This document shows, piece by piece, positions 3,671 to 57,990 of a DNA stretch of 64,000 bases (its first letter is position 1; each line of letters begins with the position of its first letter). The position numbers and the translations under genes were made by a program. This DNA comes from Sipunculus nudus. Lineage: Eukaryota > Annelida > Sipuncula > Golfingiida > Sipunculidae. Location of the stretch: NCBI GenBank assembly GCA_026874595.1, contig CM049308.1, positions 17,358,001-17,422,000 of the forward strand. Reading direction: 5' to 3'. The notes beneath the pieces were generated by a model. It worked only from the letters and a program-made list of their open reading frames with translations. It had not been told where the DNA came from and made no database searches.

Positions 3671-4990
3671 TTATCAAAAACAAGTGACCCGTGGGTCATG
3701 ACGCTCAGCCGACTGACATGTTGATAATATTTCCTTGCACAGATAAGTTATTAAGATAGGTGACATCATTGTTCATTCATATTAGCATAAGTTCATCAAG
3801 ACCCATAAGCACAACAAATCTGATGACAATCCAACCAGCCTTTCATGAGGAATCTGGCAATTTGTGTGTATTTCGCATTATTTCTGGGGTGCTCAAACAT
3901 ATCCCAAAACTCTGAGAATATTGGTCACTGTGACCCAATTTCAGGTTAAGACAGAGACTTAGTTTCAGGTTTTCAAGAGAACTTGTCAAGAAAGAAGATT
4001 CTAGGTTTAGTCATTACGATTTAAGCCCTATTAACAGATGACGTCATCTTTTAAGGTCTAAAAAATAGAGAAAATAATCGTAAAAAATACAGGTGGCGCC
4101 ACCAGTCGGCAAAAACTGATGTAACATCCCATGATCAATATCCATGCAAAAAATCAGGGTGATCAATGCATTAGTTGTTCAGATACTCGAGCTTTTGTAT
4201 CAAATTTTTCATTAATCTTGGGGGTACTTCGGAGCCCCATAGCTTAAAGAATATGGGTAACAGAGACCTAATTCCAGGTTTTCAAGGAGACTTTTCATGG
4301 ACCTATCTGGATATCAAGTTAGAAGATTCCAGGTCCAGCGGTTACAATTTTGCCCTGTAAACAGATGACAGCATCTTTTTAGGTCTCAAAATATAGGAAA
4401 AAAATCGTAAAAAAATCGATAAAATTTTTCATTATTCTAGGGGGTACTTCGGAGCCCCATAGCTGGAAGAATATGGGTAACAGAGACCTAATACCAAGTT
4501 TCCAAGAAGACTTTCATTGACCTCTCTGGATGTAAAGTGAGAAGATTCCAGATCCAGGTGTTAAAATTTGTGCCCTGTTAACAGAAGACGGCATCTTTTG
4601 AGGTCTCAAAAATAGAGAAAAAAAATCGTAAAAAATCGAAAAAATACAGGTGGCGCCACCAGTCTGCAGAAACTGATGAAACACTCCATGATCAATATCC
4701 ATGCAAAGGTTCATGGTGATCAATGCATTAGTTGTTTAGATATTTGAGCTTTCGTATCAAATTTTTCTTTATTCTGGGGGGTACTTCGGAGCTTGAAGAA
4801 TATGGGTAACAGGGACCTAATTCCAATTTCCAAGGAGATTTTTCATGGACCTCTCTGGATTTAAAGTTAGAAGATTCCAGGTCCAGTGATTACGATTTTT
4901 GCCTTGTTAACGGACAGACGGCCGGACGGCCGATGGACAAAGAGTGATCGCTATAGCTCAGATGACTTACAGTCAGCTGAGCTAAAAAGG
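3670..4990 (+). mobile_element. Tandem-repeat element, array A (Helitron/pearl-like architecture)
   Basis: The head motif GTGACCCGTGGGTCATGAC (near 3683) leads to about three diverged ~300-bp units. Each has AGGTGGCGCCACCAGTC, CATGATCAATATCCATGCA, GGGGTACTTCGGAGCCCCAT and GGGTAACAGAGACCTAAT blocks. The array ends with a GGACGG-rich stretch and GATCGCTATAGCTCAGATGA. Head, tandem core and ACGG-type tail are the layout of bivalve nonautonomous elements of the pearl/CvA type. Family assignment is inference; the repeats themselves are plain. Confidence 0.6.
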
Positions 4991-12908: not shown

Positions 12909-13334
12909 GAATGAATAGCCATGCTGGTTCGTTGTACGAAGAAATGAAACATGAATACACCGAAAAGTCGGTTCACTGCCGATGGGAAACGAACCCATGA
13001 CCTAACGATTGCCGGTTGCTTGCTCCATCCACTGAGCTACAGCAGGTCCCCGACCCCTCTGGGTATTTGCACACTTTTATAAGAACCAGCCAAGTGACGT
13101 CACGGTAGTGACGTCAGAGTACTACCCACTACATGTGTTGGCACAGCAACTTTGCATGCAGCAGGGAGAACTTGTGGCCTTATATGGTGTGCGGCATATA
13201 TTATATAGACAGATGAATGATTAGCCTTGCTGGTTCGTTGTACGAAGAAATGAAACATGAATTCACAGAAAAGTCGGTTCACTGCCGATGGGAAGTGGGA
13301 AGTGAACCGACTTTTCTTTGTATTCATGTTCATG

Positions 13335-13411
<77 letters not shown>

Positions 13412-16400
13412 GGAGAGAGAGAGAGAGAGAGAGAGATAATTTATTCACATAAAGATTTAAGACAAAATCAAACGCATTGCGAGTACTCCATGGAGTTTAA
13501 ATCCTCTGACCAGAGTGGCAATGGAAGTTGTTTTGAAGACTTTGGTTCGATTATCTTTTCTACATATTTAAAAAAAAAACTTTTTAGGGATATAGCAAGT
13601 TATTCATAACAAACAATCCACATAGGATTAGTTTCTGATGGCTCCAGCCAGTTTTTCCTTAAACGGTTATAAATGTCTTTACTACATTAACTAGGTTCAA
13701 TATGTCGGATATAAATGCCTATATTGAGTAATGAATTCAGGGTCAGGAATATTTGTGAGACGTTATATGTCTTTTGACAAGCTCCCCCAGTCTGTGGAAT
13801 TATGAATAAAAGCAGGCTGATGTACATTAATTTCATTATACAAAGTTTAATTTTATGAATTCCAATGATAAAAACTTACACCAATTTTATAAGGCAACTC
13901 CGCCGTTACTGTGGTAGCAGCTGTACCTACTGCTGGAGCTGAAAAAGAAATAAATGTTTACTTAAGGTTGCTGCATCAATGCGGCATGTAACAAAAATTA
14001 AAGTATAAAGGACATCCCAGATAGATGAGAAGCATTTCCCTGACGAATGAGTTAAACATAAAACAGGGCTTGGGCTTTCTGAAATCAAAAGCCCGGTCAG
14101 AAATCAAAGAAACAATACAGTATTCATCTTGTCCTGGCTTATCAATTAAAAAAATACTTTATCATGGATCCTTGTCAGCGGCACGTGCAGAAATTTGCAG
14201 TTAATTTTCTACTAAGCCAAACACGTACGGTCCATCTTCCATCCTCTGTTATGAAATATTTCCTAGATGACAGAAGCTATCATCACCACATTTTGTAGTT
14301 ATAAATATGCAAAAGTTTTGGTAGTGTTTCCATTGTGGCCTACTTTCAAGGAACCGTCATTATATTTTCAAGGATATCAATTTCTCCAAAAATTTGTTGA
14401 ATTTCAATGACTTCTTGAGATAATTAAGATGAGACATTTCTATACATGATATCCCATATACCTCAGTAACAGTTACAACAATAGCCACCAAAGTTTACAT
14501 GCAGATGAGGTCATATGTTTGCCAGCATTTAATTATCTACCAGGGGATGGAGTGGATGAGAAGCAGTAGAGAATATATTTGAATAACTTACTGAACATTC
14601 ACGGCTGGCAATAATATTTAAAATAATAAAAACATCGTTAGTTTTTAGTTCAAGTGACGGAAGGTTAACTGAGGTATAGCATTGGCGTTTTTTCCGTCGT
14701 TTCGTGACAAATCTAGAATTTTCTAGACCTAGAATTTTCTAACTTAACATCCATGGAGTTCATTAAAAATCATTGGTTAAAAGTCATGGTTTGTGCACCC
14801 CAGAAGAGCCTATGTATTTTATAATGTGGGTACCCTTGGGACTGGGCCCAACTGCCCACTTTATAGAGGTGCCAATTATATGGAGGTATAAGCTGGCACA
14901 TTCAGTGCTGCCACCTAAGGCCTGGTAAAGCTCTATGTATTTTAATGAAAATTTGTCCACATAAAGGCACATGTGATGACCCAAGGATTGCAGTCTGGTG
15001 CAGAAAGATTTTTATTTAGACCAGCCTAGAGAAGAAAGTTATCTTTCATGGGCCTATTTATTTTTTTCATGAATGAAAATAATACAACTTTAAATAGCCT
15101 TATATTTCAAAGTCATAAATCGTCGCCGGATCCTTTACTTTATCAATGTTTTTAATAGAAAAATTCCTTTTGAATTAAGATGGAACTTGGTTATGCTTTT
15201 TATTAATAATTTATCAATTATTATTTCTTATTCATTATTTTACCTTATTTAATCATCACATTCATTGTATGTTTCTAATAATTATATCTACTTAGTCTTT
15301 TATTTCGTTCTAAACTTGTTACAGTCCTTATTTTATTTATTTATCCTGTATCAGATTTACTTAAATAAGCTGGATAGGTTTATCAGTGTATAAACATGCT
15401 GTTATCAGTAAAATTTCTGAAGAAACCAGGAATATCCGGCGAAACATTAATTTCTTGGAGTCGAATTTAAAGGATCTCTAGGTTCCAAATTCAGGAGGAT
15501 CAGCGTACTTTTTATATTTTGAAAACAATTAAAAATTTAATAACTGCAAGAGTTTGGCAGCAAATCATTACTACCAATTAAAAACCAAGCATGTGAATTT
15601 GGATATAATTGTACAGGAAGAAAATTATTTTGAGCTGAAATACTCTCATTAATTTAGTAAAAGTCTTTAATATTTCACATGTATTTACGATCCATCTCCG
15701 ATCGATTACATAATATGTCGATTGTCTGTTTCACACAAGTCAGTTTGTTTACTTGTAATTATAGTCTATTTCGTCCATCTTGGACTATTTATGGTAGTCT
15801 CTTTTCGTCTATATGCAACATATAAAAACTTGATTTTGTCTCTTATTTTTACTGCACTGAAATGAAATAAATTGTGCAAACAAAGTGAAATAGTCCATGA
15901 AAATAGTGCCCTCTTTGGGACATTTTGTTCAACATAAATATCAACAGAAATGCTAAAACAATTTCACCTGGAACAGATAAGTTGGGAATCAGGAGACGAA
16001 ATTGTTAAAGACATTGAAAATATATAATACGAGGGGAACTTTAGTCAACTGTTGCCATTTCATGCATAAACCTACCATTGACTAATATTTTGAGAGGGAT
16101 ATCAAAGTAACAAGAGATAAAACATTTTCCATGGTTTTCTCGCCGCACTTTTGTTTTTTCCCATTTTTACCATCATGCCTAAGGTTTATCATCTTGCATC
16201 CATCGCAGTCGGAATGAGGAGGCCATCTCTGTTTTAAAAAACGCAAAAATGGTCCCATGCCTTTTTTTAAGTCGGACTATATCCGCCCGATTTTCCGGAC
16301 AATAACGGCTAAAATTATAATATTTGCATGAAAAATGTAAAAAATATTCGCCTGTCAACAACCAAGGCATGGCTGAAAAATACAAATTTTTCAATTTATT

Positions 16401-18150
16401 TGATACAATTATTTTGATCTTACATGGTCCTCTAGATTTAATTAATTCTTTTTTACAGGCGACGGTAAAGTCTCTTGTATTCGAAAAAAGAGACCACACA
16501 GACAACCCCTACGGATTCTGAGACAAAATAAATACGAGGGATAAATTTGGATAAATCCAATAATATATGATAGATTATTTTTTACCCGTATTTTCTAACA
16601 GTATTACCTTGTTAGTACAGAACAGGTGGATTTAGTATTTGAGAAACAAAGAGGGCAACAAATGCAACTGGGCAAAAGGCCAAGATCTGCACTCATTTTG
16701 ATCCAAAATAAACAACCGTCGTTCCCCTGTCCATATTTTTTAAAATTTAAATTTTCATTGAAATATTTGGAGACCAACTGACATACTAGAAAATTTGCCA
16801 CACTGGTTACATCAATTTCAGTCAGCCATCTTTTTTACGTAACGTGATTAACTGTTATAGAGAATTCGAAAGGGTTACGATGTCGTGTCATACACAAAAG
16901 CAACAACTCACAAAACTGATCCTCCATGACAGCACTCGCGCCCTGCGGTCCCAACAATTCATCAAGTAGAGGAAAAATGTTGGCGGCCACGCTGCACTTG
17001 TTCAATTCACAATTGGGATAATTGCGTATAATGATTCCAACCACGCGATTCCACTTGAACACTGGGGCCCCGCAGTCTCCATAACACGTGGCTTGCGTAG
17101 GCATAGTCGTCAGCATACAGATGTTCTTTGTTCCATCAGTTGTTATAGAAGTAATGCCAGCACAGCACGCGTTAGCCCCACTCCATTTCATTTGAACCGC
17201 TTGTATATTTGTTGCATCAGTTTCAGGTGTCATCGATGTCATCCCCCATCCACTCAGCATAACCGGTTCTTCCGGCGTAGGTACATGTGTTTTTGAACAT
17301 GGTAGTTCTGCCGGTTTACAGGTTGTCAATTCATAATCTCTTTCGATGATTATTATGGCCACCTCTTTATCCTTTGTATATCTTACTTCTTTTATTTTTC
17401 CTTCATTGGTTTTTGAGGGACCGCTATACAGTCTGAAATAACAGATGGATCGGTAAAACGCAGGGAAAAGATGCTTTGCATGGTGCGTCATTTATGACAC
17501 AAACACATGATATCTGTTACCAAATATTCCAACCATTTTGTCGGCTACATGTGGTTCATTTAATTTCTGCGTGCAAAAAAATTCTATATACCTATATGTT
17601 TGAATTATCTTCACGAGGCATAATATTTGTGGAAGTTTTACATCCCATATTCATTTCCAAATACTTTGTAATACCTCATTTTACGTTATTTTACGTAATT
17701 TGTCAAAACGGGGCAATAACTATATATATATGTTTTGATTTCGACTTAGGAATTTGCGTTATCGTTCTCTAACTTTTGCCAAATTTAGAACTTCTACAGG
17801 AGTTTATTGTCTTTTTCTGTGTCTGCCTTTGACCGAACAAAATAGCCGCGTCACATACGGGGGCGAGTAGCTCCACAGTAATAAATTGAAAACACTCAAC
17901 CCAGTCAACCGTGACACTGGTTGGTTACTTTCCACACTACAGCGTTTAGTTACAGTATTTTCATTGCTTTTGGCATATGAACATATATATGCATGTCCAA
18001 GAGAGCATTTGGAGCCACAATTACGTGATCTGGTCCGATTACAGGTACTGAGTTACTTAATCACACGTAATAGGATAGGTGAATAGTCACTACCAATATT
18101 AATTGTGTATTCATCATAATAAATTAGTCTTCCTGTTATTTCTCTGTTAT

Positions 18151-18210
<60 letters not shown>

Positions 18211-18322
18211 TATTTACATTCTGTGTAACTGAACTTTGCGTAAATAATCACTATGTACCAGCCCTTAGCATCCTGCTAGTAGAGCACTATTTGATTCGTT
18301 CTGCAAACATGTATACTATCGG

Positions 18323-18400
<78 letters not shown>

Positions 18401-19181
18401 AAAACCTCGTTGTGTCGAAGTCGAAGGGACTTGTGAATTTACTTCGTTCAACAGGAGTTCGAGACATCCGATATTCATTTTATTCAATCTCATTCGGCCT
18501 TTATTATTATTGATAAATACTACACATGTATAAGTCCTATATTACGTTGTTCTAATGAGTGTGTGCGTGAAAGAACAACATAATGTTATAAAAAAAATTT
18601 TTGTTAATAAAGAAGCACATACGTAACACCAAAATAGGATTAAGTAAATAAAAAAAGTGAAGCAGTATAGTGAGCTCTTTGGTAAATAAGAGTCAATCTG
18701 AAAGGTGTTATCTTCCTCCCTATACATAGAGTCCTGTCTGTTTATCCTAGACCCGTCGAATATGAGGATTCCATTATGTTTGGTTTATTAATAACTTTTC
18801 ATTTCGAATCAAGGCATGATTATGAGTGATTAATTGGTCAAACACGTAAAAAACGGACCAGGTGTGTAAACCATCGCGCCTGATGGGTAAGATCCTTTGC
18901 CGGAAATTATTATATAACTGGTCATCACGGCCGTAGGTATGATTGATGGACCGTTCACAACTTTTTTCGAAACATTCAAGCGACATGACTTCGAGTTAAG
19001 CAATAGAAATACTAGCTGGGGACCAACAAAACACTTCGACTATTCAGGTGTTTCGTCACATCCGAGTTCGACAAAAAAGGAGTTGAATTATTAAAGTTTT
19101 AACTGTTTTTGCAGGGACTTCATATTCAACTTCGAAACATGCGGGAATTCGAATTAAACGACTTCCACAAAACGATGTTAC

Positions 19182-19263
<82 letters not shown>

Positions 19264-22200
19264 TCCGGCTGGCCTAAAGAAATTATGGAATGGGAGTGCG
19301 AGGGATCCATGAGAATTATCAAGTCTCCCTGGGGATCATGATGCTCAACTGACCTCTGACACAGAGATATTCTATAAACTTAGATTGCTGTCATATTAGT
19401 ATTGTTGTAACTCTGTTTGCAACAGAAGTGAAGAATATATCAAATATGGTTACTGGGAGTTTTCGGAGCGTGGTACCGCGAGATTTCGAAATCACCTGCA
19501 TTTCTGTTTACATTGCAAACATCGACAAATTACACCAGTGAGCTTACGGATACGTTCGTCCATGAGAAGTAGTGCGGCCAAAAAGATCATAGAGAAAGCG
19601 CAAAACCTGCTTATGAATGCCCGTATAGGTGAGATAAATTTCAGGATTACATGCAAAAAGTGCAGACTGCAACGAGAGATTGTTTGATACAGTTACCAAC
19701 GATCGTTTTGCGGAGTTACACGCTTACATAGAGAAAGGTAAACGCCTAGAATGGGACAAATGTCGAGACCGCCATCGCAACAAGTTTTCACTCTAAGTTG
19801 CCAAACAGCCATCTCCAGATACCACTGAAAGTGGAGTAAGTCAAGCAGAAACGGATAACATCAAAAACAGGTGGGTGAAAACATTTCTTCTCGAGAACCT
19901 TCTACACATATGGTATCTGTGTTGCGTAGAGGGCTCAACTTTGCCGTCACGCCTGACCGGCTCCCTGTCAATGACATAATCCTAGCTGTAGAAACGGCAT
20001 GTAAACACATTGGGGCCACCTCCGATGAAGCGGCCTCCCTTCATGTTGATTGTGTCAAATTGATCCAGAATGCTAGACCCCCGAAAAAAGTAACATCTCT
20101 CGAGAGGAAAGACAAGCTCTAGATGATTTGAAAAATGATGACTCCATTTACACCATGCCGGCTGACAAAAGCCGCGCTGTAGTCGTAATTGACAAATCTG
20201 AATATGAGGCAAAAATGGAGGCCTTGTTGAGTGACACAAACATCTACGAAAAACTAAAAAAAAACCCACAACCATGTATTCTAGACAGGTCATCTCGGCT
20301 TTGAAGGACATTAAGGCATCTGGTGCTCTGACTCATAAACAATATCTTGAGCTATACCCCACTTCCTCCGTTCCCCCTAAATTGTACGGCCTCTCTAAGA
20401 TCCACAAGGCTGGCGAACCCCTGCGCCCTATAGTAGCCTCTCGTGGATCGGTCACGTACAATATCGCTAGATTTTTGGCTAAAATACTTGCCCCTCTTGT
20501 GGGTTAATCTCCACGTCACATCATGAACAGTAAAGGCCTGGTAGATAAATTATCCTGCATCAGATTGGCATAGAATGAGAGTTTGGTGTCTTATGACGTC
20601 ACTGCCCTCTTCACTAGTGTACCTGTGGATAAGGCCCTTAAGATTATCTTGGAACTGCTGGAGAATGACGAGACCCTCAACGATAGGACCGACTTAAATT
20701 CAGCCCAGGTCACGGCCCTTCTCAGGTTATGCCTCAAGACGACTTATTTCGTTTACAAAGGGGAGTACAATAAGCAGAAGGAAGGTGCCGCCATGGGCTC
20801 CCCAGTAAGCCCTATTGTGGCTAATCTCTACATGGAGAATTTTGAGGAGAAAGCCATCGCTTCATTCCCCCATCCGCTCAAATTTTCGCTATGTCGACGA
20901 CACCATCTCCTCGCTCAAAACCGCACTCATTGACCTCTTCACTGTCCACCTGAACAGCATCGACTCTAAGATACAGTTCACAGTGGAACATGTTGAGGAC
21001 AAGACGATTGCTATGCTTGACGCTAAGATTAAGATTCAAGACGACGGATCCCTTGAGTTCTCGGTGTATAGAAAAATCACACACACCGACCAATATCTGC
21101 AATTCGACAGCCACCAGCCCCTGCAACACAAACTCGGTGTGGTACGCACCCTCAAGCACCGTGCGCATGCAATCTGCAGCTCTCGGGAAACCCTAGATAC
21201 TGAACTCGACCATCTAGACAAAGTTCTTAGGGTATCGGGCTAACCCGAGAGAGGCTGCCCCTCACACGGACAAAATTGTGCCCCATCCTGGTACTGAGTG
21301 CTCTTTTCCTGTTAAAGGTCATGTCACGATCCCCAACGTGGCAGGCATTTCTGACATTCTAACCAGGAAATTCCGCAAATTGGGTGTTGCAACTCATGCG
21401 GTCCCTGCCAACTCCATCCGCAGACATCTTGGTACCCCCAAAGATAAGGACCCCATGTCGGATATGGGTGGTATTGTGTACCATCTCCAATGTGCAGACT
21501 GCGACCACCACTATGTCGGTGAAACGGGTAGAGCCTTTAAAATACGACACTCTGAACATCTAAAGGACGCTAATTCCCCCGTCTTCCAACATCTCAATAG
21601 TACGGGACACCATCTAGAAAAAGGCAAAATGGTTGACAAAGATTCACGCTGGTTCAAACGCGGCATACGCGAAGCTATGCAGATACGAAAACTCCAGCCC
21701 ACTCTCAACCAGGACCAAGGGCGCCACCCTCTCCCGAGAACCTACAACTCCTTGTTGTTGACACGTGACCGTTCGTGCCTCACGGCCTATGGCAACGGCT
21801 CAACAACAAACTAAGGATTTCCCCTGGCCTTGTTCACGTCATTCAGTGAACAAGTCTGGTAGAGACCAGACTAAAACTCTGCTTTCAAATACTTTGCATG
21901 TGGGTACTGTTAAATTGTTTCATATTTATTATGGTTACTTCAATTTGTCCATTTGGATAGATACAATAGTTAATCATGATGCATGTTGCTGGTCTCCTAT
22001 TGTGACATGTTGAACCTGATTTCTGAGTCTTAAAAAATTGCCTCCCAAAGGAAACAAAATAATGGAACTCCTGATTGCGGGTGTGAATATTATGTAGAGA
22101 GAAAATTGAATGATTTGAAAGACACTTTGTTGGGTGCAATATACACTCTCAGAAATACTTTCACAAATGAAACAGAAAAGTAATATTTAAGCTGTTAAGA

Positions 22201-25200
22201 GAAGAAACTAAAACGAATGCGACACAAACTGCAAAAATGGTACAAAGCGTGGAATAAGCTTGAAAGATATAAAATGAAAAAGGAGAAATTGACCGAGGAA
22301 AATAGAAAACTGAAAAAGTAGCAACATTTTTTCAAGCCAAGTTGTGACTTCTGTGATTAATATGCCCAAACAAAGAAGGTAACTTCAAAAAGGTAAAAAT
22401 AGGCCCACAGGATTTTGAGTGGATGAAGATAAACCTTTCATGATTCGTGGTGATTGTAGCATTTTTTAAAATAAAAATCATCAGGAACGAAGAAGAGTGC
22501 AAATTAAAGTAAAAGTAAAAGATATTGTTGAATATTTCAAGCTGCCTTGATTTAATTGATATACGAAATAACTTGAAATCAATGGCAGACTAGACCTGCT
22601 TTTATTTTTGCGTTGTTTACAAGATTTTTTAAGTAATGGCATTTCCCTCGGGTCTAGTTTGAAAATTTGAGGCAAACAGCAAGAAGAAAGGATACTGGAA
22701 GTTTAACAATGATTTATTAAAGATGAATCCTGCAAGGAATTGTCTATCACGAATTGTGGGATAAAATGGAAATTATCAAAGTATTCGACCAGAGAGTAAA
22801 CCATTGTTTACGCAAAGAACATTAGGAATATACTGAATGATCATAACGAGACAGTATCCTCTAGACTAAAATGTTTCGACAGAGGGAGAGAATTGACTGA
22901 CCTATGAGAATATTTCTAGCAAAGAGATACAAGTCACCAAGGGTTCATGACGCTTAGCTGACTAGAAAAACGTTCACAAAGGGAATTTTATCAATACCAA
23001 ATTTTTTAGGTGGTATCCCATTTCAACTGAGGCTCAGCTGGAGGATATGAGTAACGAAGATCTAATTTCAGGTTTCCAAGGAGATTTTTCAAGGAACTGC
23101 CTGGATGTCAAGTTAGAAGATTCTAGGTCCAATATTTACATTTGTACTCTGTTAACAGGCAACCGCTCAAGAAAAGGCGTTAACATTTGATAAAATCCAG
23201 GTGGTACCACCAGTCTGCAGGAACTGATAAAACACTCAATAATGCATGTGCATGCAAAGAATCATGGTGATGGATTTCATTAGGTGTTCAGGAACTGGAG
23301 GTTTCATATAATCTGTTTAATTATACTGAAGGGTATTTACAAGCCCTTTAGCTCAAAGGATAGGGTAACAGAAACCTAATGTCAGATTTAAAAGGATATT
23401 TTTCATGGACATCTCTGCATTTTAAATAAGAAGATTCTAGGTTGATAGGTTACGATTTGTACCCTGTTAACAGATGACTGCATCTTTGAAGGTATAAAAA
23501 AAAGAAAAAATGCATAAAAATAAGTGAAAAAAACAGGTGGTGCCACTAGTCTGCAGGAACTGATAAAACACTCAATAATGAATATGCATGTAAAGTATCA
23601 TGGAAATCAATGCATCAGTTGTTCAGATACTGGAGCTTTTTTAACACAGTTTTAATTATTCTAGGGGGAACTCCGAATCCCATAGCTAAGAGGATATGGG
23701 TAACAGAGACCTAATTTCAGGTCTGCAAGGAGACTTATCATGGGCCCTCCTGCATGTCAAGAAAAACGATTCTAGGTCCAGTCGTTACGATTTGTGCTCT
23801 GTTAAAAGATGACCGCATCGTAAGAGGTCTAAAGAATAAAGAAAAAATTGGTAAAAATATAAAAATACAGGTGGCGCCACCAGACTGCAGAAACGGATAA
23901 ACCATTCTATGATCAATATCGATGCAAAGAATCATGGTGATCAATGCAACAGTTGGCCAGATACTTGAGCTTTTGTATCAAATCTTCCGTTTTTATTCTG
24001 GGTGATTATTTGGAGCCCCATAGCTCAGAGGTTATGGATAACAAAGACCAAGGAGACTTTAATGGGGCTCCCTGCAAGTCAAAAAAGAAGATTCTAGGTC
24101 CCGTCAATACGATTTGAGTCTTGTTAACAGATGACTGCAACTTTTTCAGTCTCAAAATAGAGTTGTTCATTAGTTGTTCAGATACCTGCGCTTTTGTTTC
24201 AAATTAACCATTATTCTGGGGGGGGGGGGCGGGTATTTCGAAGCCCCATAGCTCAAAGAATAAGGGGAAAACATAATTTCAGGTTTCAAAGGAGATTTTT
24301 TATGGACCTCCAAGGATGTTAAGTAAGAAGATTCCAGGTCCAGTGGTTACAATATGTGCCTGGTAAACGGTCGGACAGACGGACGGGCAGACAAACGGAC
24401 AGACAGACGGACAGGCGGACAGACGGACGCCGGACAAATGGTGATTGCTATAGCTCAGATGACTTTCAGTCAGCAGATCTAAAATGGTCTAGTCCTTAAA
24501 AGGCTGAAAGGACAACTGTAAGACCAAACGTTTGATGAAGAAAATGAGGATTACCAGGTACTTTTGATCAGCTAGAAATGAGGTGGAGATATTATATTAG
24601 AAAACCTAAATCACGAACAACGCCTGAGGATGCATTATCTTATTAAAAAAGAAACTACTGCCAGTAAAATCATTTTAAGAATGTCTGTATAAAAGTAAAT
24701 ATAAGAAATAACGAACTATAGGTCACCGTTTCAGATGAAACATGTTCGACCATACTCAAATATGTTCAATAAGAACATTGAAAGGTATGCTAAAGAAAAT
24801 ATATAAATAACTTTTATAAAAAAAAATCTATAAGTGGTGTCATTATTTTAATTAAATAAAGTACAACTGCGATTTGAAAGAGGTTTTGCAGAGAAGTTAT
24901 TTTTTAACTCAACTTTTCCTACAGAAAATATAGGCATGCCTTAATATAAAGAGAATATGTTAATCTTGTAAAAGTTTCTTCAATTTATTCTTCAATTAAC
25001 TCTGTTATTTGAACGACTGAAATTTTTACTGCAGCGAAGCAACGTTTTGCGATTGATCTGAATTACCCTTTCACAAACTTCTAACTCCACTTTCACCTCG
25101 GGAAATTCAAATCAACGTTAGTATTAACGAACGTGTATGACTTACTTGATGCTAGTAGGTGAGGCCGCAGCACGTGCGCATGCCCCACACGTAAGCACCA

Positions 25201-26052
25201 CCCGATTAGAGATACACACACCAGAGCATTTTGTGATTCCCGAATCAATATAGACCATGGATTGTGAAGTCGTTGTATCTGTATTTGTAGCCCCTGTTGG
25301 TATAAAATATCAAATGTTTAGGTTTAGAACTAAATCGACCTGATAATATAAAGAGAGAACAATGATGACGCAGGATGTTTTGTTTGTTCAAAAGGTCTCG
25401 TCCGATGAAATTTATCATTTTTTAAAATTATATACATATACAACCTTCGATGATGGCATAAGTTCGACAAATTGTTAAAAAATGGTCTCTCTCTTTCTTA
25501 AATGCGACGGTTTTCTTGGGTTGTAGGGTCATTATCGAACAAATCACCAATGAGACTTAAAAATATCGCTGTATTTTATATCGAAAAAATCGCAGAATCA
25601 ATATGACTAAACTTCACCTGGCATCTTGGATTATAGGAGTATAATTGGTCAAGATATCAATTTTGAGGTTTAGAATAGAGATAGCCTGGTAAAAAAGTGA
25701 GATTTAAGCTGAAACCGGATGTTTTGTTTTTCACTTGTTTGCGTCCAATGAAATTTGGCAATTTTTTTAAAAATAATTTTAAATCAATTTAAATTTATAA
25801 TTAAAAGTACGCAACTGATCACAAATAACATGATAAATCACTGAAAGGTGTAAATAATAGTATAGTATCACTCGCCATTTGTCCTACAAGTAATGAAATA
25901 TGTAGTAGTCTTTTGTTACTTTCATACAACCCTAACACCCAGATGAGAGATAACCTACCTCCAATAATGTAGGAATCCCTCTTCAATCTTTTCAAAACAT
26001 TTAAGCCGCACACCGCGTTGATGTACAGCAAGATAACGACCAAGAGCTTCAT
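12076..26052 (-). CDS. Secreted trypsin-fold pseudoprotease with a C-terminal cysteine-rich domain (5 exons)
   Basis: The CDS joins 26052-25959, 25293-25146, 17432-16912, 13938-13880 and 12330-12076 on the minus strand. It totals 1077 nt (358 aa plus stop); all donors are GT, all acceptors AG, and phases run 1,2,1,0. Residues 1-16 form a hydrophobic signal peptide, followed by a basic propeptide (KRLKRDSY) and IIGG (29-32), the usual mature N-terminus of S1 proteases. C54/C70 match Cys42/Cys58; SGWG (141-144) and GDxG (199-202) are present. The catalytic residues are lost: Ala69 at His57, Glu104 at Asp102, Cys201 at Ser195. The Asp194 equivalent (D200) and Gly193 equivalent (G199) remain. Residues 255-274 are a Thr/Ala linker, and 275-358 hold nine Cys ending in GCRCC and CYKPC. 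It is likely extracellular and non-proteolytic, perhaps a binding or regulatory protein; the partner is unknown. Intron 2 (7.7 kb) is full of transposons. Exon chaining is by eye but the phases agree throughout. Confidence 0.8.
12404..12471. repeat. (TA)n microsatellite
   Basis: A long TA run directly 5' of the hammerhead-like motif. Confidence 0.9.
12476..12555 (+). ncRNA. Hammerhead-ribozyme-like motif (probable Penelope-like or retrozyme terminal repeat)
   Basis: An outer 15-bp perfect stem (CTGAAGAAAAACAAC at 12476-12490 with GTTGTTTTTCTTCAG at 12541-12555) encloses the hammerhead core. This comprises CTGATGA (12492-12498), stem II CGGG/CCCG (12500-12503/12510-12513), GAAA (12515-12518) and a short stem III ACA-GAC-TGT. 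Cleavage would follow the U at 12527. A three-pair stem III is typical of hammerheads in Penelope-like elements and retrozymes. Pairing of stem I next to the core is poor, so activity is uncertain. Confidence 0.5.
12635..12685. repeat. (TA)n microsatellite
   Basis: Separates the hammerhead-like segment from the long hairpin. Confidence 0.9.
12686..12791. repeat. Long hairpin with a perfect 31-bp stem
   Basis: Positions 12694-12724 are the exact reverse complement of 12752-12782. A further 5-bp pairing, GCGAA/TTCGC, follows after a small internal mismatch. The loop is 27 nt. It sits between two (TA)n tracts and is followed by CAGACTAACACGGCTA. Confidence 0.85.
12792..12822 (+). mobile_element. 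Retroelement-like terminal motif CAGACTAACACGGCTA
   Basis: The string ACTACAGACTAACACGGCTA next to a (TA)n run resembles a terminus I recall from interspersed repeats in vertebrate genomes, where it follows a hammerhead-like segment. It supports reading 12470-12860 as a Penelope-like end. The link is from memory and needs a repeat-library search. Confidence 0.4.
12822..12905. repeat. (TA)n-(GA)n compound microsatellite
   Basis: TA repeats pass directly into GA repeats at about 12864. Confidence 0.9.
12908..13335 (-). repeat. tRNA-like interspersed repeat, one unit plus partial second unit
   Basis: The block AGCCATGCTGGTTCGTTGTA recurs about 300 bp later at 13222 as AGCCTTGCTGGTTCG. Between them lie the tRNA-like segment, GCACACTTTTATAAGAACCAG, two TGACGTCA palindromes and a CATGCAGCAGGGA block. 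The same set recurs at 43606-44010. The second partial unit folds back on itself (GAAAAGTCGGTTCACT 13268-13283 with its complement 13301-13316). Confidence 0.6.
12975..13046 (-). pseudogene. tRNA-like sequence (72 nt, apparent GGC anticodon)
   Basis: On the minus strand the acceptor pairs 6 of 7 (CCTGCTG with CGGCAGT), the D stem GCTC/GAGC is perfect, and the T arm ATGGG-TTCGTTT-CCCAT is perfect. A box TAGCTCAGTGG and B box GGTTCGTTTCC are recognisable. The anticodon loop CCGGCAA lacks U33. It is embedded in a dispersed repeat, so it is more likely a SINE-type Pol III promoter than a working tRNA. Confidence 0.55.
13339..13437. repeat. (TA)n-(GA)n compound microsatellite
   Basis: TA run to about 13368, then GA repeats with one GGAGG interruption. 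Confidence 0.9.
13880..13938 (-). CDS. Pseudoprotease exon 4: Thr/Ala linker
   Basis: A 59-nt exon with a strong acceptor (TTTTTCAG|CTCC) and donor (GGT|GTAAGT). It takes phase 1 from exon 3 and leaves phase 0 for exon 5, encoding [20 protein letters not shown]. It has no cysteine and looks like a spacer between the protease fold and the C-terminal domain. Confidence 0.7.
13939..16911. other. Intron 3 of the pseudoprotease gene; nothing else recognised
   Basis: AT-rich intron DNA. Short open frames are present but show no domain or splice support. Confidence 0.5.
16912..17432 (-). CDS. Pseudoprotease exon 3: Asp102 and Ser195 regions
   Basis: The acceptor is TTATTTCAG|ACTG (17433/17432). 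The donor is TTTT|GTGAGT (16912/16911). It encodes residues 81-254 and carries [10 protein letters not shown] (the Asp102 position is Glu104), LSGWG (140-144) and CYGDCGAP, where the Ser195 position is Cys201. The open frame continues past the donor to a stop at 16835. A read-through isoform lacking the C-terminal domain is therefore possible, but the donor and phase-matched downstream exons favour splicing. Confidence 0.8.
18157..18204. repeat. (TA)n microsatellite
   Basis: Immediately precedes a hairpin at 18205-18252. Confidence 0.9.
18205..18252. repeat. 13-bp hairpin after (TA)n
   Basis: AGTGATTATTTAC (18205-18217) pairs exactly with GTAAATAATCACT (18240-18252) across a 22-nt loop. The (TA)n-then-hairpin arrangement copies that at 12635-12791. 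Confidence 0.75.
18327..18397. repeat. (TA)n microsatellite (left flank of pogo-like MITE)
   Basis: About 35 TA units, ending where the element AAAGTAAAACCTCG begins. Confidence 0.9.
18397..19186. mobile_element. pogo/Tigger-type MITE inserted in (TA)n
   Basis: The left end reads AAAGTAAAACCTCGTTGTGT followed by CGAAGTCGAAGGGAC. The right end in reverse complement reads ACAGAGTAACATCGTTTTGT then GGAAGTCG, TTCGAA and so on. This is the familiar AGTAAAACCTCGTTTTTTCGAA-like pogo inverted repeat, here imperfect. (TA)n lies on both sides, fitting TA target use. About 790 bp, no transposase. Confidence 0.55.
19187..19259. repeat. (TA)n microsatellite
   Basis: Lies between the pogo-like MITE and the Penelope-like element. 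Confidence 0.9.
19562..20880 (+). pseudogene. PLE reverse transcriptase, N-terminal and palm part
   Basis: From 19562 ([17 protein letters not shown]) broken frames give [20 protein letters not shown] (about 19932), [20 protein letters not shown] (about 20155), [20 protein letters not shown] (about 20370) and [18 protein letters not shown] (about 20586). These are the conserved PLE blocks up to RT motif A (YDVTALFTS). [12 protein letters not shown] (about 20797) is RT motif B. Stops and frameshifts occur near 19686, 20120, 20506 and 20570. Confidence 0.7.
20815..21243 (+). pseudogene. PLE reverse transcriptase, YVDD and thumb part
   Basis: After a frameshift near 20880 the frame continues with [12 protein letters not shown], the RT catalytic motif C. 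It then reads [18 protein letters not shown] and [20 protein letters not shown], the thumb block of PLE and related RTs. A stop at about 21241-21243 ends this segment. The catalytic Asp pair of YVDD is intact although the reading frame is broken. Confidence 0.7.
21278..21814 (+). pseudogene. PLE GIY-YIG endonuclease domain
   Basis: The frame encodes [20 protein letters not shown], then [16 protein letters not shown] and YVGET correspond to the GIY and YIG signatures, with a CxxC between them and the conserved Arg at the helix start, as in PLE endonucleases that nick the target. It ends at a TAA at about 21812-21814. The domain itself looks intact over about 95 residues, although the upstream RT is broken. 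Confidence 0.75.
21832..21871. repeat. Two adjacent hairpins after the PLE stop codon
   Basis: GTTCAC (21832-21837) pairs with GTGAAC (21846-21851). GTCTGGT (21854-21860) pairs with ACCAGAC (21865-21871) across an AGAG tetraloop. They sit 18-57 nt beyond the stop and may belong to the PLE 3' end recognised by its RT. Confidence 0.6.
22000..22925. other. No gene; one short Lys/Glu-rich decayed reading frame
   Basis: At about 22219-22323 a frame reads [18 protein letters not shown] followed by [15 protein letters not shown] and a stop, suggesting a coiled-coil fragment. No start or partner exon was found. The rest is AT-rich and unrecognised. Confidence 0.3.
22930..24485 (+). mobile_element. 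Tandem-repeat element, array B
   Basis: Same family as array A. A head CAAGTCACCAAGGGTTCATG near 22934 is followed by about four diverged units with AGGTGGTACCACCAGTCTGC or GGTGGCGCCACC blocks. The tail is a GGACAGACGGAC microsatellite (24368-24432) and ATTGCTATAGCTCAGATGAC. It lies inside intron 2 of the pseudoprotease gene. Confidence 0.6.
25146..25293 (-). CDS. Pseudoprotease exon 2: Cys42-Cys58 segment with His57 replaced
   Basis: The acceptor is ACCAACAG|GGGC and the donor is AA|GTAAGT. It encodes residues 33-80. The spacing from C54 to C70 is 16, exactly that between Cys42 and Cys58 of chymotrypsin. The normally invariant TAAHC is TCGAC, so the catalytic His position is Ala69. Two extra cysteines (C58 and C67) lie close by. 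Confidence 0.8.
25959..26052 (-). CDS. Pseudoprotease exon 1: signal peptide, propeptide and IIGG
   Basis: Starts at the ATG at 26052-26050, which has A at -3. Residues 1-16 ([16 protein letters not shown]) are a classic signal peptide. The exon ends after IIG plus one base at the donor G|GTAGGT (25959/25958). The next in-frame codon across the junction is Gly, completing IIGG. A TATA box lies about 50 bp upstream, which supports this as the true first exon. Confidence 0.82.
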
Positions 26053-26102
26053 TCTTTGTTCGCGTGTCTGCTGCTCACTACGAGTATACTTCGTGATCCT
26101 CG

Positions 26103-26110
26103 CTTTATAA
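26103..26110 (-). promoter_or_regulatory. TATA box of the pseudoprotease gene
   Basis: On the minus strand the sequence reads TTATAAAG about 51 bp upstream of the start codon. A transcription start 25-30 bp downstream would leave a 5' leader of roughly 25-30 nt. A TATA promoter of this kind suits a strongly or tissue-specifically expressed secreted protein. Confidence 0.6.
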
Positions 26111-41329: not shown

Positions 41330-43470
41330 CATATGTGGCGCCTGTAAAACCCATATTCTTCCAGCTATTGGGCCCCGACGTACCCCCCCCCCCCCCAGAA
41401 TAATGGCAATTTCATACAAAAGCTCAAGTATCTGAACAACTTATGCATTGATCACCATGATTTTTTTTTGCATGGATATTGAACATGGAGTGTTTCATCA
41501 GTTTCTGCAGACTGGTAGCGCAACCTGTATTTTTTCGATTTTTAACTTTTCTTTTCTCTATTTTTGAGATATTTAAAGATTGGTCATCTGTTAACAGGGC
41601 ACAAATTGTAACCGCTAGACCAAGAATCTTCTTACTTGACATCCGAAGAGGTCCATGAAAAATCTCCTGGAAACCCTGAAATTAGCTCTCTGTTACCCAT
41701 ATTCTTCGAGGTATGGGGCTCCAAAGTACCCCCCAGAATAATGGCAATTTCATACAAAAGCTCAAGTATCTGAACAACTTATGCATTGATCACCATGATT
41801 TTATTTTGCATGGATATTGAACATGGAGTGTTTCCTCAGTTTCTGCAGACTGGTGGCGCTACCTGTATTTTTTTATTTTTTTTTTTTTTATGATTTTTTT
41901 TCTATTTTTTAGACCTTTAAAGATGCAGTCATCTGTTAACAGGGCATAAATTGTAACCGCTTGACCTAGAATCTTCTTACTTAAAAACCTGAGAGGTCAA
42001 TGTAAAACCTCTTTGGAAACCTTAAATAAAGTCTCTGTTACATATATTCTTCCAGCTATGGGGCTATGAAATACCCCCCCGAACAGCTGAAAATTTCATA
42101 GAAAAGCTCAAGTATCTGAACACTAATGGATTGATCACCATGATTTTTTGCATGGATATGATCATGGAGTGTTTCATCAGTTTCTGCAGACTGGTGGCGC
42201 CACCTGTATTTTTTTCAATTTTTAACGATTTTTTTCTCTATTTTTGAGACCTTTATAGATGCGGTCATCTGTAAACAGGTCACAAATCGTAACCGCTAGA
42301 TCTAGAATCTTCTTACTTGATATCCGGAGAGGTCCATGAAAAATCTTCTTGGAAATCTGAAATAAGGTCTCTGTTACCAATATTCTTCCAGCAATGGGGC
42401 TCCAAATTACCCCCCAGAATAATGAAAAATTTAATACAAAAACTCAAGTAGCTGATCAACTAATACATTGATCACCATGATTCTTTGCATGGATATTGAT
42501 CGTGGAGTGTTTAATCAGTTTCTACAGACTGGTGGCGCAACCTGCAATTTTTCGATTTTTTACATTTCTTTCTCTCTATTTTTGAGACCTTTAAAGATGC
42601 AGTCATCTGTTAACAGGGCCCAAATCGTAACCATTGGACCTGGAATTTTTTTTTTGACATTCAGGGAGGTCTCCTTGGAAACCTTTGATTAGGTCTCTGT
42701 TACCCATATTCTCTGAACTATGGGGCTCAGAAGTACACCCCAGATTAATGAAAATTTGAACAAAAGCTCAAGTATCTGAACAACTAATGCATTGATCACC
42801 ATGATTCTTTGCATGGATATGTTTCATCAGTCTGCAGGTTGGTTGCGATACCTGTATATTTTTTTAAAGATTTTTTTCTCTATTTTTGAGACCTTTAAAG
42901 ATGTGGTCATCTGTTAACAGGACATTTATCGTAATGACTTGACCTAGAATCTTGTATATTTTGACAAGAAAAATCTCCTAGAATCTTTCAATTTGACATA
43001 ATAGAAGATTCATGAACTTCTCCAAGGTAACCTGAAATTACGTCATTCTTACCCATACCATTTGAGCTATGGCGCTAAAAAGTGTCCTCAAAACAATTAA
43101 AAGTTTTAAACAAAAGCAGGGCACACATAATAAAAATTGGACCTAGAATCTTCCAATTTGACACCCAGGGGGGTCCATAAAAAGTCTCCTTGCAAAATTG
43201 AAATTATAGGTATCTATAACTGATATTTTCCAACTTAGGCGGCAAGTTTGAGCACCCCATAAATAATGCAAAATACATAAAAATGTGAGATTCCTCAGGA
43301 GTGGGTAAAAGGAATGTCCTAAATTTGGTGTGCTTATGCATTTTAATGAACTTAAGTTAACTTGCATGAATGATGGTGCCACCTACATTATCTTAATTAG
43401 TTCCCTATGCAAGGACATATTGTCAACATGTCAGTCGGCTGAGCGTCATGACCCATGGGTCACTTGTTAC
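41330..43470 (-). mobile_element. Tandem-repeat element, array C
   Basis: An inverted member of the array A/B family with about five or six units of roughly 310-380 bp. Reverse-complement blocks include ATTATTCTGGGGGGTAC, AGGTGGCGCCACCAGTCTGC (41511-42840, several diverged) and GGTAACAGAGACC. The head palindrome TGACCCATGGGTCA is at 43450-43463. The GGAC-type tail is not visible at the other end. Confidence 0.6.
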
Positions 43471-43608: not shown

Positions 43609-44015
43609 CAATATCCGGTCGGTGGCCTTACCACTTGGCTAAACCCGACTCCCTCCCCCTCTGTGTAATTGCACACTTTTATAGGAACCAGCGAAGTGAC
43701 GTCATGATAATGACGTCATTGTCTGACCCACTACATGTGTCGGCACGGCGACATTGCATGCAGCAGGGAAAACTAATGGCCTAATATGGTGTGCTGCATA
43801 TATCATATTTAGATGTATGAAAAGCCATGCTGGTTCATTGTTTACAGATGGAAATGGTATACATAAAAAAGTCGATTAACTGACGGTGGGAATCGAACCC
43901 ACGATCTTCCGATTTCCGGTCGGTGGGTTTACCACTTGGCTACGCCAGATTCCCTTCCCCTCTGTGTATTTGCACACTTATAGGAACCAGCGAAGTGAAG
44001 GCAAGGCGACTATAT
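43607..44015 (-). repeat. tRNA-like interspersed repeat, partial tandem dimer
   Basis: Two copies of CGGTCGGTGG(C/G)(C/T)TTACCACTTGGCTA (43617 and 43918), each followed by CCCTCTGTGTAATTGCACAC and AGGAACCAGCGAAGTGA. The family is the one at 12908-13335, including TGACGTCA sites and CATGCAGCAGGGA. Confidence 0.6.
43879..43949 (-). pseudogene. tRNA-like sequence (71 nt, apparent GGA anticodon)
   Basis: In reverse complement the acceptor pairs 6 of 7 (TCTGGCG with CGTCAGT). The anticodon stem is CCGA/TCGG with loop CCGGAAA, and the T arm GTGGG-TTCGATT-CCCAC is perfect. The B box is GGTTCGATTCC and the A box TAGCCAAGTGG. The D stem does not close. It is probably a repeat-borne Pol III promoter rather than a real tRNA gene. 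Confidence 0.55.
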
Positions 44016-45602: not shown

Positions 45603-45722
45603 TTCTGGCGTTCGCCATGATGGACGTGTGATCCCGCACTGCGAGATTCGTCCACTGTTGGGTTTGTACAAATGATTTTGCCAACTGAACTGTAAGTTGT
45701 GTTTCTTTTCCCTTGCCCGCCA

Positions 45723-47785
45723 TGGAGAACCCCACTTATTGTGGCTCTTGTGGTTCTTTAATCCCGCTTTTGGACTCCCACCCCACTTGTTTTCGTTGCC
45801 GCACCAACAATGACCCCTGCCGTGGTCCGGCTGATCCTCGTTTTCACTGCCAGACTTGGATGTCTGACATGTGGGCCTTGTTCCAGGATTGGGCCCATTC
45901 CCCGGTACTTGGGGGTTCACCCTCCCATATTCCATTGTCTGGCCCCGTGGTTGTCTCAGGGGGGGAGGGGGGGGGGAGCCTACCCTGGTTGACCGCACCA
46001 CGGCTGTGCTGCGTTCACCGTCCGTTCCCGCCGGTCCTGTCACCTCTCCAGTGGTTTCGACAGTTAAATCGTTGCTTTCTCATTCACGGAAACGGAAATC
46101 TTCCCCCGTTCCCGCGGCCTCCCGTTCTGACTGCACATCTGCCTATTCCATATTACATAAATTGTCCCGGTTTTGCTCATCACTTATGTCGGATCTCGAC
46201 GATTCGTCTAGACCCGAATCAGTCCGCCCGGCGCCCTCGCCGGCGCCCCCGGTACTTCTCCCCGGCCGTTCTCGTCGCCCCCGGCTCCTCGCCGGATTCC
46301 TTCATTATCCCCGGGGCGGGTTGGAGCCGTCCCGCTGGATCGCCCGGACCTTCCTGGTGTGCAGGTAAGTTCGTCGGTCCCTCCTGCCTCCATTCGGGGC
46401 AGCCGGCCTCGCCTCTGGTTCCTCCGTCTGCCGTCGTTACTAACCGGCCGGCCGACTCTTTATTTCAGTTACCATCTGCTGTCCGGCCTGCGGCTCCGGT
46501 TCCTGTGCCTTCCCGGATGGTTCCTGCTGCTGCTCGTTCCCCGGCTTCCTGTTTCCAGCCTCCGGTTGTTCCGGCTCAGCGGGTCTCTCTGGCTCCCCCT
46601 ACACGGGGTTCTCCAGGGTCCCCGGCTTCTCAGTCAGCCGATCCCGCCCTGGCACCAGACCAGTGGTCGGAGATCGCGCTGCAACGCCAGGCTTGGCGTA
46701 CGCGCAAATCTGCGCTTCTGGACCTAGTGGCTACCTCCACACAGGAGGCTAACCCTAGTGGTCCAAAGTTCCGTAGGTTACAACCTCGGACTCTCTCGGC
46801 GTCGGCAGCCGGTTCTTATTTGAATCCGGCCACCCTTCAATCGCCCTCAGCAGCGCCCGCCGTGTGTCTGGGATTTACAGACCACACGGGGGATCTCTTA
46901 CGTGAGCACCCCGCGGTGGTCTCGGGGTCTCGCTCTACTCCTCCTGGGGCCCCGCTTCCGCCGGGTTCGGATATACTTTGGTCCCCCGGTCCCTCTGGAA
47001 TTCCCGTGGGTACCGGGCTACCTGTTTCGATCGCTTGCCCCATTATCCTGATCACCCGGATGTTCTGTCTGCTCCGCTGCGACTCGAGTCCGGCCTGGAA
47101 CAGCTGTTTGCGGACGGTAAGTCTTTATTTCCATCCTCTGTCCAGTTTTCCGATCGTCACCTGTCGGATCTGGAGGGGCTCGGCCGGCAAGCGGCTGGTA
47201 TGGTTACCGACTTGCAGGCTGTCACTAGCTTGCTCGCCGTTTCTCCGGACACGCTCACTCTCAACGACATATGGCAGGCTTCTGCCCATCCTGGCGCTGA
47301 GTTAAATCAGGTCGTTGGCACCTGGTTGAAAATTGCATCTTGTTACGCCGCACGGCTTGCATTCAGTCATTTAAGCACTTAAAGCCGGAGTTTCTCAGGC
47401 GGAGTTACCCGAGCTTTATTCTCCGCCTTTTACCGGTTCCCTGCTGTTTGGCGGCCAATTACGGCCTCTATTTGACCGTGCCTTGGAGCGATCGGATCAT
47501 CAGGCCCGCCTCCGCTCGACCTCTCTTGCGCCTCGGCCATCCTTCCGCGTTCCCCGCTCTTGGCTTCCGGTTGCGGCTTCCGCTCAGCCGCGTCGCGCAT
47601 CTGCTACCTCTTCACGTCCTTCAGGCCGTTCCAGCCGTTCTCAGCCTTTTCGTGGTCGATCCTCCAAACGAGGTTTGACCAAGAAATCACTCTCTCGCTC
47701 CGGTCAGCGCCCATTTTCCCGCGTGGGCGGGTATCCCCTCACAGCGGTTAATTCTCAGCACCCTAAAGTTCGGGTTCCGTCTTAA
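45723..47785 (+). pseudogene. DIRS gag-like ORF, frameshifted
   Basis: Starts MENPTYCGSCGSLI with a CxxC...CxxC pair (YCGSC...TCFRC), a likely zinc-binding knuckle. It continues through Pro/Ser-rich sequence to a conserved-looking helical part (DLEGLGRQAAGMVTDLQAVT, about 47166-47225). It ends with a basic Arg/Ser tail (SSRPSGRSSRSQPFRGRSSK) that stops at 47783-47785. The frame changes near 45960 (in a G tract), 46360, 46970 and 47400-47480. Such proteins package the element RNA. The function is inferred from position. Confidence 0.6.
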
Positions 47786-47800
47786 GTTTTTGCACACACC

Positions 47801-48646
47801 ATGCACCCATTCTTCACTCCGCCTCCGTCCGATCCGGCAAACCGCCTCGCTTTGGAGGAGGCCATTCAATCTATGTTAGCCAAACGGGCAATTTTCGAGG
47901 TTTCCCCATCCACCTTGGGGTTTTACTCTCGCCTTTTTCTTGTTCCCAAACCGCACGGCCGTTGGCGCCCGATCATAGACCTGAAGCGCCTCGATTCGTT
48001 CATCCCTCGGCCCCGTTTCGGATGTTCAATATCCATGCTGTGCTCCGCATTGTTCGGCGGATGGATTGGGCGTTCAAAAAGAGGCCTTACGGATGCCTAT
48101 TTTCACATTCCCATCCATCCCGCGTCTCAACCGTTTCTTCGCTTCGCGTATCAGAACCGCGTTTTTCAATTCCGGGCCCTTATGTTCGGGATCACCGTGG
48201 CCCCCTGGGTTTTTGACCATGCTTGTTCACCCGGTCACGAGTTATCTCGTTCACAGGGCATTTCTGTGCTCCCTTATCTGGACGATTGGCTGGTCCATGC
48301 GGCCGATCGCTCCCTCTTACTGTCGCATCGCTCCCGGGTTCTCAACTTACTTCGGAACCTTGGCTTCCTGGTCAATACGGAGAAATCTCTTCCCACTCCC
48401 ACCCAGTCCATCCAATTTCTGGGTGTCCCGCTCGATTTTGCGTCCGGCACGGCGTCGCTCCCGCGAGATTTTGCTCTCACGCTCCGCTGCCTAATTCGTT
48501 CCTTTCTCACGCGGCGCTGTGTAGACTCGCGCACAGCAGCTTCTCTCCACGGTGCTCTCCACTGGGCCGCGTCCTTATCCCGTTCGGCCGACTGTACCTC
48601 CGTCCGATTCAGTCTATCTTGCGCCGTCACGGCCTTCTCCGTTTAA
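47801..48646 (+). pseudogene. DIRS reverse transcriptase
   Basis: The 281-codon frame contains LFLVPKPHGRWRPIIDLKRL, LTDAYFHIPIHPASQPFLRF (motif A), LMFGITVAPWVF (motif B) and LPYLDDWLVHA (motif C, YLDD). LVNTEKS and IQFLGVPLDF follow. These are the hallmark blocks of DIRS/Ngaro-type RTs. The frame is lost near 48640 and continues in another frame into RNase H. Confidence 0.82.
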
Positions 48647-49120
48647 CCTCGGTTCGTCCTACGATCCTCCCGTTTTGGCTCACCTGGCGGTCCCTTCGTC
48701 CCTGGATTGACCTTTCCTTTCTCCTGCGCGGCGTTCCTTTTTCCATGGATGTCACTTGCACCATCTATACCGATGCGTCTCTCCTCGGTTGAGGGGCCCA
48801 TCTTGCCGATCTTCGCGCTTCGGGGATATGGTCCCCGTCGGACCGTCTGCTCCATATCAATATCCTCGAACTGCGTGCCGTCCGTCGTGCGATCTCCCAC
48901 TGGTCTCCCCGCTTGATCGGAAGTCACATTCTCGTCCGGACCGACCATACCACGGGGGTGGCATATATCAACAGGCAGGGCGGTACTAGGTCTCCATCGC
49001 TCATGCTGGAGACTTACCTTTTGTTCGATCTATGCATCTCTCTCCGGGCGTCGATTCGTGCATCCCATCTTCCGGGCGTGTCGAACATCCTTGCGGACGC
49101 ACTTTCCCGTCATCCGGAGT
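48640..49120 (+). pseudogene. DIRS RNase H domain
   Basis: In the frame ending at 48792 the sequence reads CTIYTDASLLG then TGA where Trp is expected. Without changing frame it continues GAHLADLRASGIWS, INILELRAVRRAISHW, LVRTDHTTGVAYINRQGGT and SNILADALSRH. The catalytic Asp (TDAS), Glu (LEL) and second Asp (TDHTT) of RNase H are all present. One nonsense mutation (48790-48792) breaks it. Confidence 0.78.
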
Positions 49121-49199
49121 CTCCTCCTTCCCCGCCGCTCCTTCCGCTCCCGGTTGTTCGGAGTGTTTTCGCTCGCCTGGGGCGGCCGGAATTCGATCT

Positions 49200-50545: not shown

Positions 50546-50730
50546 GGCATCGGGCCTTTACTCCCTAGGCCCTGTGATCGCGTCGGGAGAGGTCCTCCAA
50601 TTTTCCAGGCCATCTTCTTCCTCTCCGTCTGTTCCACCGCCGAAGTCGTCTGCTGCTCCATCCCAGCTCTGAGATTCTCCTCGTTCCAGCGTTACAGGTA
50701 GGTGCTCCCTCCCCAAGGCATGTCTGTTCT

Positions 50731-57807: not shown

Positions 57808-57990
57808 TTTATAGCTGGAAGAATATGGGTAACAGAGACCTAATTTCAGGTTTCCAAGGAGATTTTTCATGGACCTCTCTGGATTTAGGTGAGAAGATTC
57901 TTGGTCCAGGGGTTACGATTTGTGCCATGTTAACAGATGACACCATCTTTGAGGTCCCAAAAAATAGAGAAAAATAAATCGTAACAAAAT
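57808..57990 (+). repeat. Single diverged unit of the array A-C family
   Basis: Contains ATAGCTGGAAGAATATGGGT, AACAGAGACCTAATTTCAGG and TTTTCATGGACCTCTCTGG in the same order as arrays A-C, but only one unit and no head or tail. Confidence 0.6.

Follow-up and report, generated by a model that had tools for sequence, protein, structure and literature searches.

In the scabies mite, the SMIPP-S proteins make up a multigene family of the S1 type whose catalytic triad is mutated; some members inhibit human complement, and in the portion of the source available to us they are described as paralogs of the homolog of the dust-mite group 3 allergen (PMC4930577). In Tenebrio, the accessible text gives 125 serine peptidase homologs, Asp102 being changed in 13 and clip domains being present in 21, and Cys is absent from the residue-195 replacements that this part of the account lists (PMC11172050). 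The trypsin fold is also used for binding, not catalysis, in the HGF beta chain, haptoglobin and protein Z, according to the section of the source at hand (PMC13194640). The family reported here is not described among the literature matches listed, subscription journals lying mostly outside their scope.

The window, by which we mean the whole 64,000-nucleotide stretch of Sipunculus nudus DNA that was analyzed (C3:17358001-17422000, C3 and similar labels denoting contigs of the 1.43 Gb genome), contains a five-exon gene on the minus strand (window positions 26052-12076) with a predicted secreted product of 358 residues. In order, the product comprises a signal peptide and a short basic propeptide (both assigned by eye), followed by a trypsin domain, which a short linker joins to a cysteine-rich tail. 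The features of the gene are presented in Table 1. Exons 2 and 3 are in frame with canonical splice sites, and a GTRAG donor follows exon 3 in the same phase in 14 of the 15 family genes, the gene at C3:54.59 Mb having only GTAGAG. The C8 and C10 genes were where exon 4 was initially recognized; it was subsequently located in the window and in two cluster neighbors, and exon 5 emerged as a phase-0 exon conserved between the window gene and one neighbor. The original prediction of five exons was borne out by the homologous exons 1, 4 and 5, while the interval it assigned to the gene takes in exons 2 and 3 only. A longer exon 3 ending at the stop codon at 16835 (279 aa) was ruled out by the in-phase donor after MEDQF in 14/15 genes, and an extra Cys past the end of this exon was an artefact of the donor (TGTGAG).

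Table 1. Features of the pseudo-trypsin gene in window coordinates
Feature	Position	Strand	Remark
TATA-box-like TATAAAGC	26102..26109	-	57 bp upstream of ATG; consensus match only
Exon 1: signal peptide, basic propeptide (LKRLKR), DSY/IIG boundary	25959..26052	-	Exon 1 homologs in seven further genes
Exon 2: first half of N-terminal barrel; Cys42, Cys46, Cys55, Ala57, Cys58	25146..25293	-	Homologs in 13 other genes
Exon 3: Glu102, Cys122-like, SGWG, Cys168/182/191, GDCG (Cys195), Cys220	16912..17432	-	
3' end of exon 3: conserved phase-1 GTGAGT donor	16912	-	
Exon 4: short linker	13880..13938	-	Homologous exon and splice sites in two cluster neighbors
Exon 5: 84-residue C-terminal domain, nine cysteines, stop codon	12076..12330	-	Homologs downstream of paralogs

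Intron 2 holds a reverse-transcriptase-like retroelement fragment with broken frames (19400-21814, plus strand; RVT_1 E 7e-4, below cut-off), presumably Penelope-like as judged by eye. A second retroelement at 45689-50701 on the plus strand (reverse transcriptase E 3e-14, with a weak RNase H match below cut-off) is one which, again by eye, we take to be DIRS-like. Two tRNA genes lie on the minus strand at 12974-13046 and 43877-43950 (Ala GGC, Ser GGA), and since a pair of repeats 82% alike (13029-13206 and 43631-43808) is found at or near both of them, these may be tRNA-derived repeats. Related repeat units, with a spacing often of about 335 bp, occur at approximately 4000-4930, 22990-24390 and 41390-43110, and at 57813-57974.

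Within the trypsin domain, Ala69 in LTCGAC falls at position 57, Glu104 in KEVAI at position 102 and Cys201 in GDCGAP at position 195. C54 and C70 are spaced as Cys42 and Cys58 are, SGWG is present, and the Cys42-Cys58, Cys168-Cys182 and Cys191-Cys220 pairs are kept together with Gly193, Asp194 and Gly196. The original prediction that the three catalytic positions read Ala, Glu and Cys, with Gly193 and Asp194 retained, was confirmed at the residues as placed, and its view that the trypsin fold is kept agrees with profile searches, in which PF00089 (Trypsin) matched the corrected query domain at E 4.2e-15 (56.6 bits against a curated cut-off of 20.6) and a profile of seven family members matched 326 PDB sequences at E<=0.001 (best 1.5e-15). 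These PDB matches comprised many trypsins, among them Der p 3 and SMIPP-S 3h7t (E 4.1e-12 with the family profile). PF00089 was also detected at E<=0.01 in 7/7 family members scanned. The S1 region of the window gene reads Ile-Arg-Asn, where Ser-Trp-Gly is usual.

The loss of catalytic residues extends across the family: His57 is present in 0/14 genes, Asp102 in 1/15 and Ser195 in 0/15, and none has an active S1A triad. Only the C14 gene among the 15 departs from the fold residues, with Ser for Gly193 (positions 42 and 58 were scored in 14). Codons for AAHC gave no match in the window (0.12 expected), and the looser pattern Ala-x-His-Cys gave two (0.99 expected), neither inside the gene, one being on the plus strand and the other lying some 29 kb upstream of it. 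An alternative exon 2 with the catalytic His, named in the original prediction as evidence that would count against it, was not found in the gene, and exon 2 as read in 13 other family genes likewise lacks His57. Judged by sequence, the product is a serine protease homolog (a trypsin fold with a substituted triad), and our best reading of the window gene is that it encodes a predicted non-catalytic pseudoprotease.

A search of the genome with exon 3 of a C8 relative returned 20 places from 24 candidates. Fifteen of these, the window gene included, are genes of the same kind, intact in the exons read and located on five large contigs, with six in a tandem, same-strand cluster at C3:17.16-17.45 Mb; C6 and C8 carry three each, and single genes lie on C10, on C14 and at C3:54.59 Mb. 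Degraded relatives were present at C10:16.31 and C14:11.87 Mb, with a frameshifted further copy at C3:21.13 Mb, and the remaining three places, two on C13 and one at C8:69.27, hold pseudo-trypsins of another kind, in which position 195 is Ala or Gly. When a tree was built that also contained five more trypsin-like sequences from the genome, the 15 genes grouped together (support 86/92, recovered in 88% of bootstrap trees), and the program flagged long outgroup branches. Family members are as little as 23% identical, and 22 of the 210 gap-free columns in a 14-member alignment are invariant, 9 of the 22 being Cys. The pattern C[FY]GDCG[GA] occurred at 16 places in 1.43 Gb (a control pattern at one), 15 of which are family loci, including the degraded C10 copy; the C14 gene escapes it because it reads SDCG. 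The sixteenth place (CFGDCGA, C6:86227247-86227266, minus strand) lies outside known family loci.

Elsewhere in the genome, the trypsin-like genes L018, L042, L043 and L044 carry Ala or Gly at 195 (GDAGG, GDGGG) and are apparent pseudoproteases outside the family. Contamination of the assembly by bacterial sequence may account for trypsin-family matches with long open frames and equal scores (ten at 77.1 bits, for example) on the small contigs C61-C90 and C138. When a phage collection was searched with the query, only two weak matches were obtained (a Rhodococcus phage serine protease, E 0.02, and another, E 0.9); a family relative as query gave no match there, and no match among viral contigs was confirmed.

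With respect to the dead active site, Cys195 is present in 15/15 genes and Cys55 in all 14 in which exon 2 was found (that of the C10 gene was not found), and the codons of both vary between TGT and TGC. The original prediction, which dealt with Cys195 only, did not note Cys55 as its co-conserved partner. Position 57 drifts (Ala 5, Thr 1, Arg 3, Lys 2 and Asn 3 of 14), as does position 102 (Glu 9, Gly 5 and Asp 1 of 15), and two intact-triad relatives in the genome have Ala55 and Ser195. The presence of Cys46 agrees with that of Cys119 in 14/14 genes, that of an extra Cys preceding 168 matches that of a Cys after 220 in 15/15, and a GC late in exon 3 tracks an extra first Cys of exon 5 (both in 3/10, neither in 7/10). 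Summed over exons 2, 3 and 5, the cysteines come to an even number in 9/9 genes with all three read (22 in six, 20 in three), with the caveat that close relatives are not independent and that a redox pair would also give even totals. As Cys46/119 and the other cysteines are gained and lost in pairs, a disulfide is preferred for Cys55-Cys195, and the dead site is probably closed by this bond; conservation of Cys195 or of C55-x-x-C58 would also be expected under a chemical role. The trypsin part and the tail contain nine invariant cysteines each, a number which, if all are paired, suggests an interdomain bond, most simply from Cys122. In chymotrypsin Cys122 also holds a separate chain. An AlphaFold prediction of exon 3 alone (198 aa, past the donor) had a pLDDT of 38.6 and was unusable as a model.

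The tail domain encoded by exon 5 gave no match at E<=10 either to Pfam with any member (HMMER filters drop most weak matches) or to PDB chains by sequence or profile. Ten exon 5 sequences were aligned and share nine invariant cysteines. A genome search with exon 5 of the window gene produced 23 matches from 24 candidates, and a tail match was observed downstream on the same strand, 2-20 kb off, for 15/15 family genes; ten of these were read and five were located only, and for the two at roughly 18-20 kb from the gene the linkage is by position only. Two of the tail matches scored E 0.7 and 1.3, and both were read and keep the pattern. Other tail pieces were found inside the cluster at C3:17.280 (with stops) and 17.2895 (two rows), at C8:7.823 in the C8 group, at C3:21.142 beside the frameshifted copy and at C14:11.917 (with stops), together with chance-level matches on C13 (E 0.23) and C4 (E 4.3). 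As all of these lie near the family or are at chance level, this search gave no convincing tail match away from it.

In the eight first exons read, the residue before the IIGG-type motif was Tyr in seven and Phe in one (the gene at C3:17.164) and was never Arg or Lys, the sequence being RDSY in the cluster and RDNY or KESY on C8. With Tyr or Phe in place of Arg or Lys before Ile16, trypsin-type activation is unlikely, and an N-terminus inserting beside Asp194 would not be made by a trypsin-like cut. In the window gene KRLKR, presumably a furin-like motif, ends three residues before IIGG. The description of IIGG after a basic propeptide in the original prediction was therefore correct for the propeptide but not for the usual Arg/Lys activation bond, and its suggestion that the activation machinery may be preserved was not supported by the comparison of first exons, though Asp194 is kept. 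Exon 1 encodes only the signal peptide and short propeptide, and no N-terminal clip domain of six cysteines, which argues against the clip-type regulator that had been proposed.

Selection was compared between the two parts of the protein in three pairs among three cluster genes. While dN/dS over exons 1-3 was 0.28, 0.19 and 0.30, the same pairs gave 0.62, 0.91 and 1.16 over exon 5. Exons 1-3 are under purifying selection, in line with the original prediction and against random decay. With 82-84 codons from three related genes behind them, the exon 5 values indicate fast change, not proven positive selection. On the uncorrected reading of exon 3, the query pair had given a dN/dS of 0.28 and two C8 genes one of 0.49.

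We consider it reasonably probable that the window gene belongs to an expanded, secreted, non-catalytic trypsin-fold family in which the barrels are joined by a Cys55-Cys195 disulfide and serve as scaffold for a variable tail. Cys55 would belong to the N-terminal barrel and Cys195 to the C-terminal barrel, and the bond between them would lock the two across the dead site, beside Cys42-Cys58, with Cys122 bonded to the C-terminal domain. Such a protein would not need zymogen activation. It would function by binding: the trypsin part would give rigid support, and the variable tail would engage a partner that itself changes, such as a microbe, a gamete or another organism; a decoy or receptor-binding role would be compatible with this. 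That the changes are random, in a pseudogene or through an assembly artefact, is scarcely credible for the window gene given its open five-exon frame, conserved splice sites, low dN/dS over exons 1-3 and the same Cys in 15 genes, even with degraded relatives at three places in the genome. A pseudoprotease in which Cys55 and Cys195 instead pair with other cysteines, or stay free in a structural role, would fit all the sequence evidence for lost catalysis and selection equally well; we regard it as unlikely, as the two cysteines are near the old catalytic center and are kept together wherever both were read, for which a pair is the simplest account, and as L044, the sole other pseudo-trypsin with exon 2 read, has neither.

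A chemical use of the same residues was also weighed. C55-x-x-C58 with Cys195 and Cys42 could form a thiol-disulfide exchange center or a four-cysteine metal site, and a CxxC motif is indeed present in 14/14 exon 2 sequences (CGAC, CGTC, CANC, CARC, CGKC or CGRC) alongside the invariant Cys195. In the accessible text of two studies, Ala55 and Cys58 are described as near the catalytic residues (PMC3434108) and, in a simulation, the Ser195 O-gamma contacts the oxidised Cys42 (PMC13165411); the Cys42-Cys58 bond is placed near the triad. This proximity counts equally in favor of the Cys55-Cys195 disulfide. We nevertheless find such a site rather improbable: the fold itself normally contains Cys42-Cys58 as a structural disulfide, the protein is predicted to be secreted, a setting in which cysteines are paired by default, the even Cys totals fit full pairing, and neither 57 nor 102 holds a conserved acid or base. 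Viral 3C-like cysteine proteases of the PA clan have a trypsin-like fold with a Cys nucleophile and keep the catalytic His. A cysteine peptidase of this type, with Cys195 as the working nucleophile, would benefit from the Gly193, Asp194 and Gly196 kept beside Cys195 in the GDCG of the window gene; it is very improbable in view of the absence of the PA-clan Cys and His combination, the Ile-Arg-Asn S1 region, the Tyr before IIGG and the Gly at 102 in 5/15 genes. Leaving staple and redox or metal site side by side, we lean slightly towards the statement that across the family the active site has been turned into a conserved Cys cluster (42, 55, 58, 195) and that a new, rapidly diversifying recognition domain rich in cysteine has been added as the tail. 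If true, this would be a new route from a protease fold to a binding or redox protein, and the conserved trypsin part set against the fast-changing tail points to a recognition role.

In comparison with known systems, the product of the window gene resembles in sequence the serine pseudoproteases that act by binding and not by cleavage; of these, the HGF beta chain, haptoglobin and protein Z differ from this family in architecture, and we know of no Cys55-Cys195 pair in any of them. Viral 3C-like proteases differ in their His, which is absent at 57 in 14/14 family genes. To our knowledge, neither the Cys55/Cys195 pair nor a cysteine-rich C-terminal domain occurs in SMIPP-S. Pseudoproteases are usually known by their losses; here two cysteines have been gained, one per barrel, and kept through deep divergence. 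Arthropod serine protease homologs resemble the window gene in having an S1A domain with triad substitutions and in being mostly secreted, and a cysteine-rich C-terminal domain like that of the window gene is not described for those of Tenebrio in the available part of the source (PMC11172050). The original prediction had held the loss of all three catalytic residues with a Cys at 195 to be unusual; this is only partly borne out, since a mutated triad also marks the SMIPP-S family as described in the available text (PMC4930577), but the Cys at 195 is absent from the Tenebrio list as accessible, and only 13 of the 125 homologs there have a changed Asp102 (PMC11172050). The nearest expanded inactivated S1 family found is SMIPP-S, which is likewise an expanded S1A family with a mutated triad.
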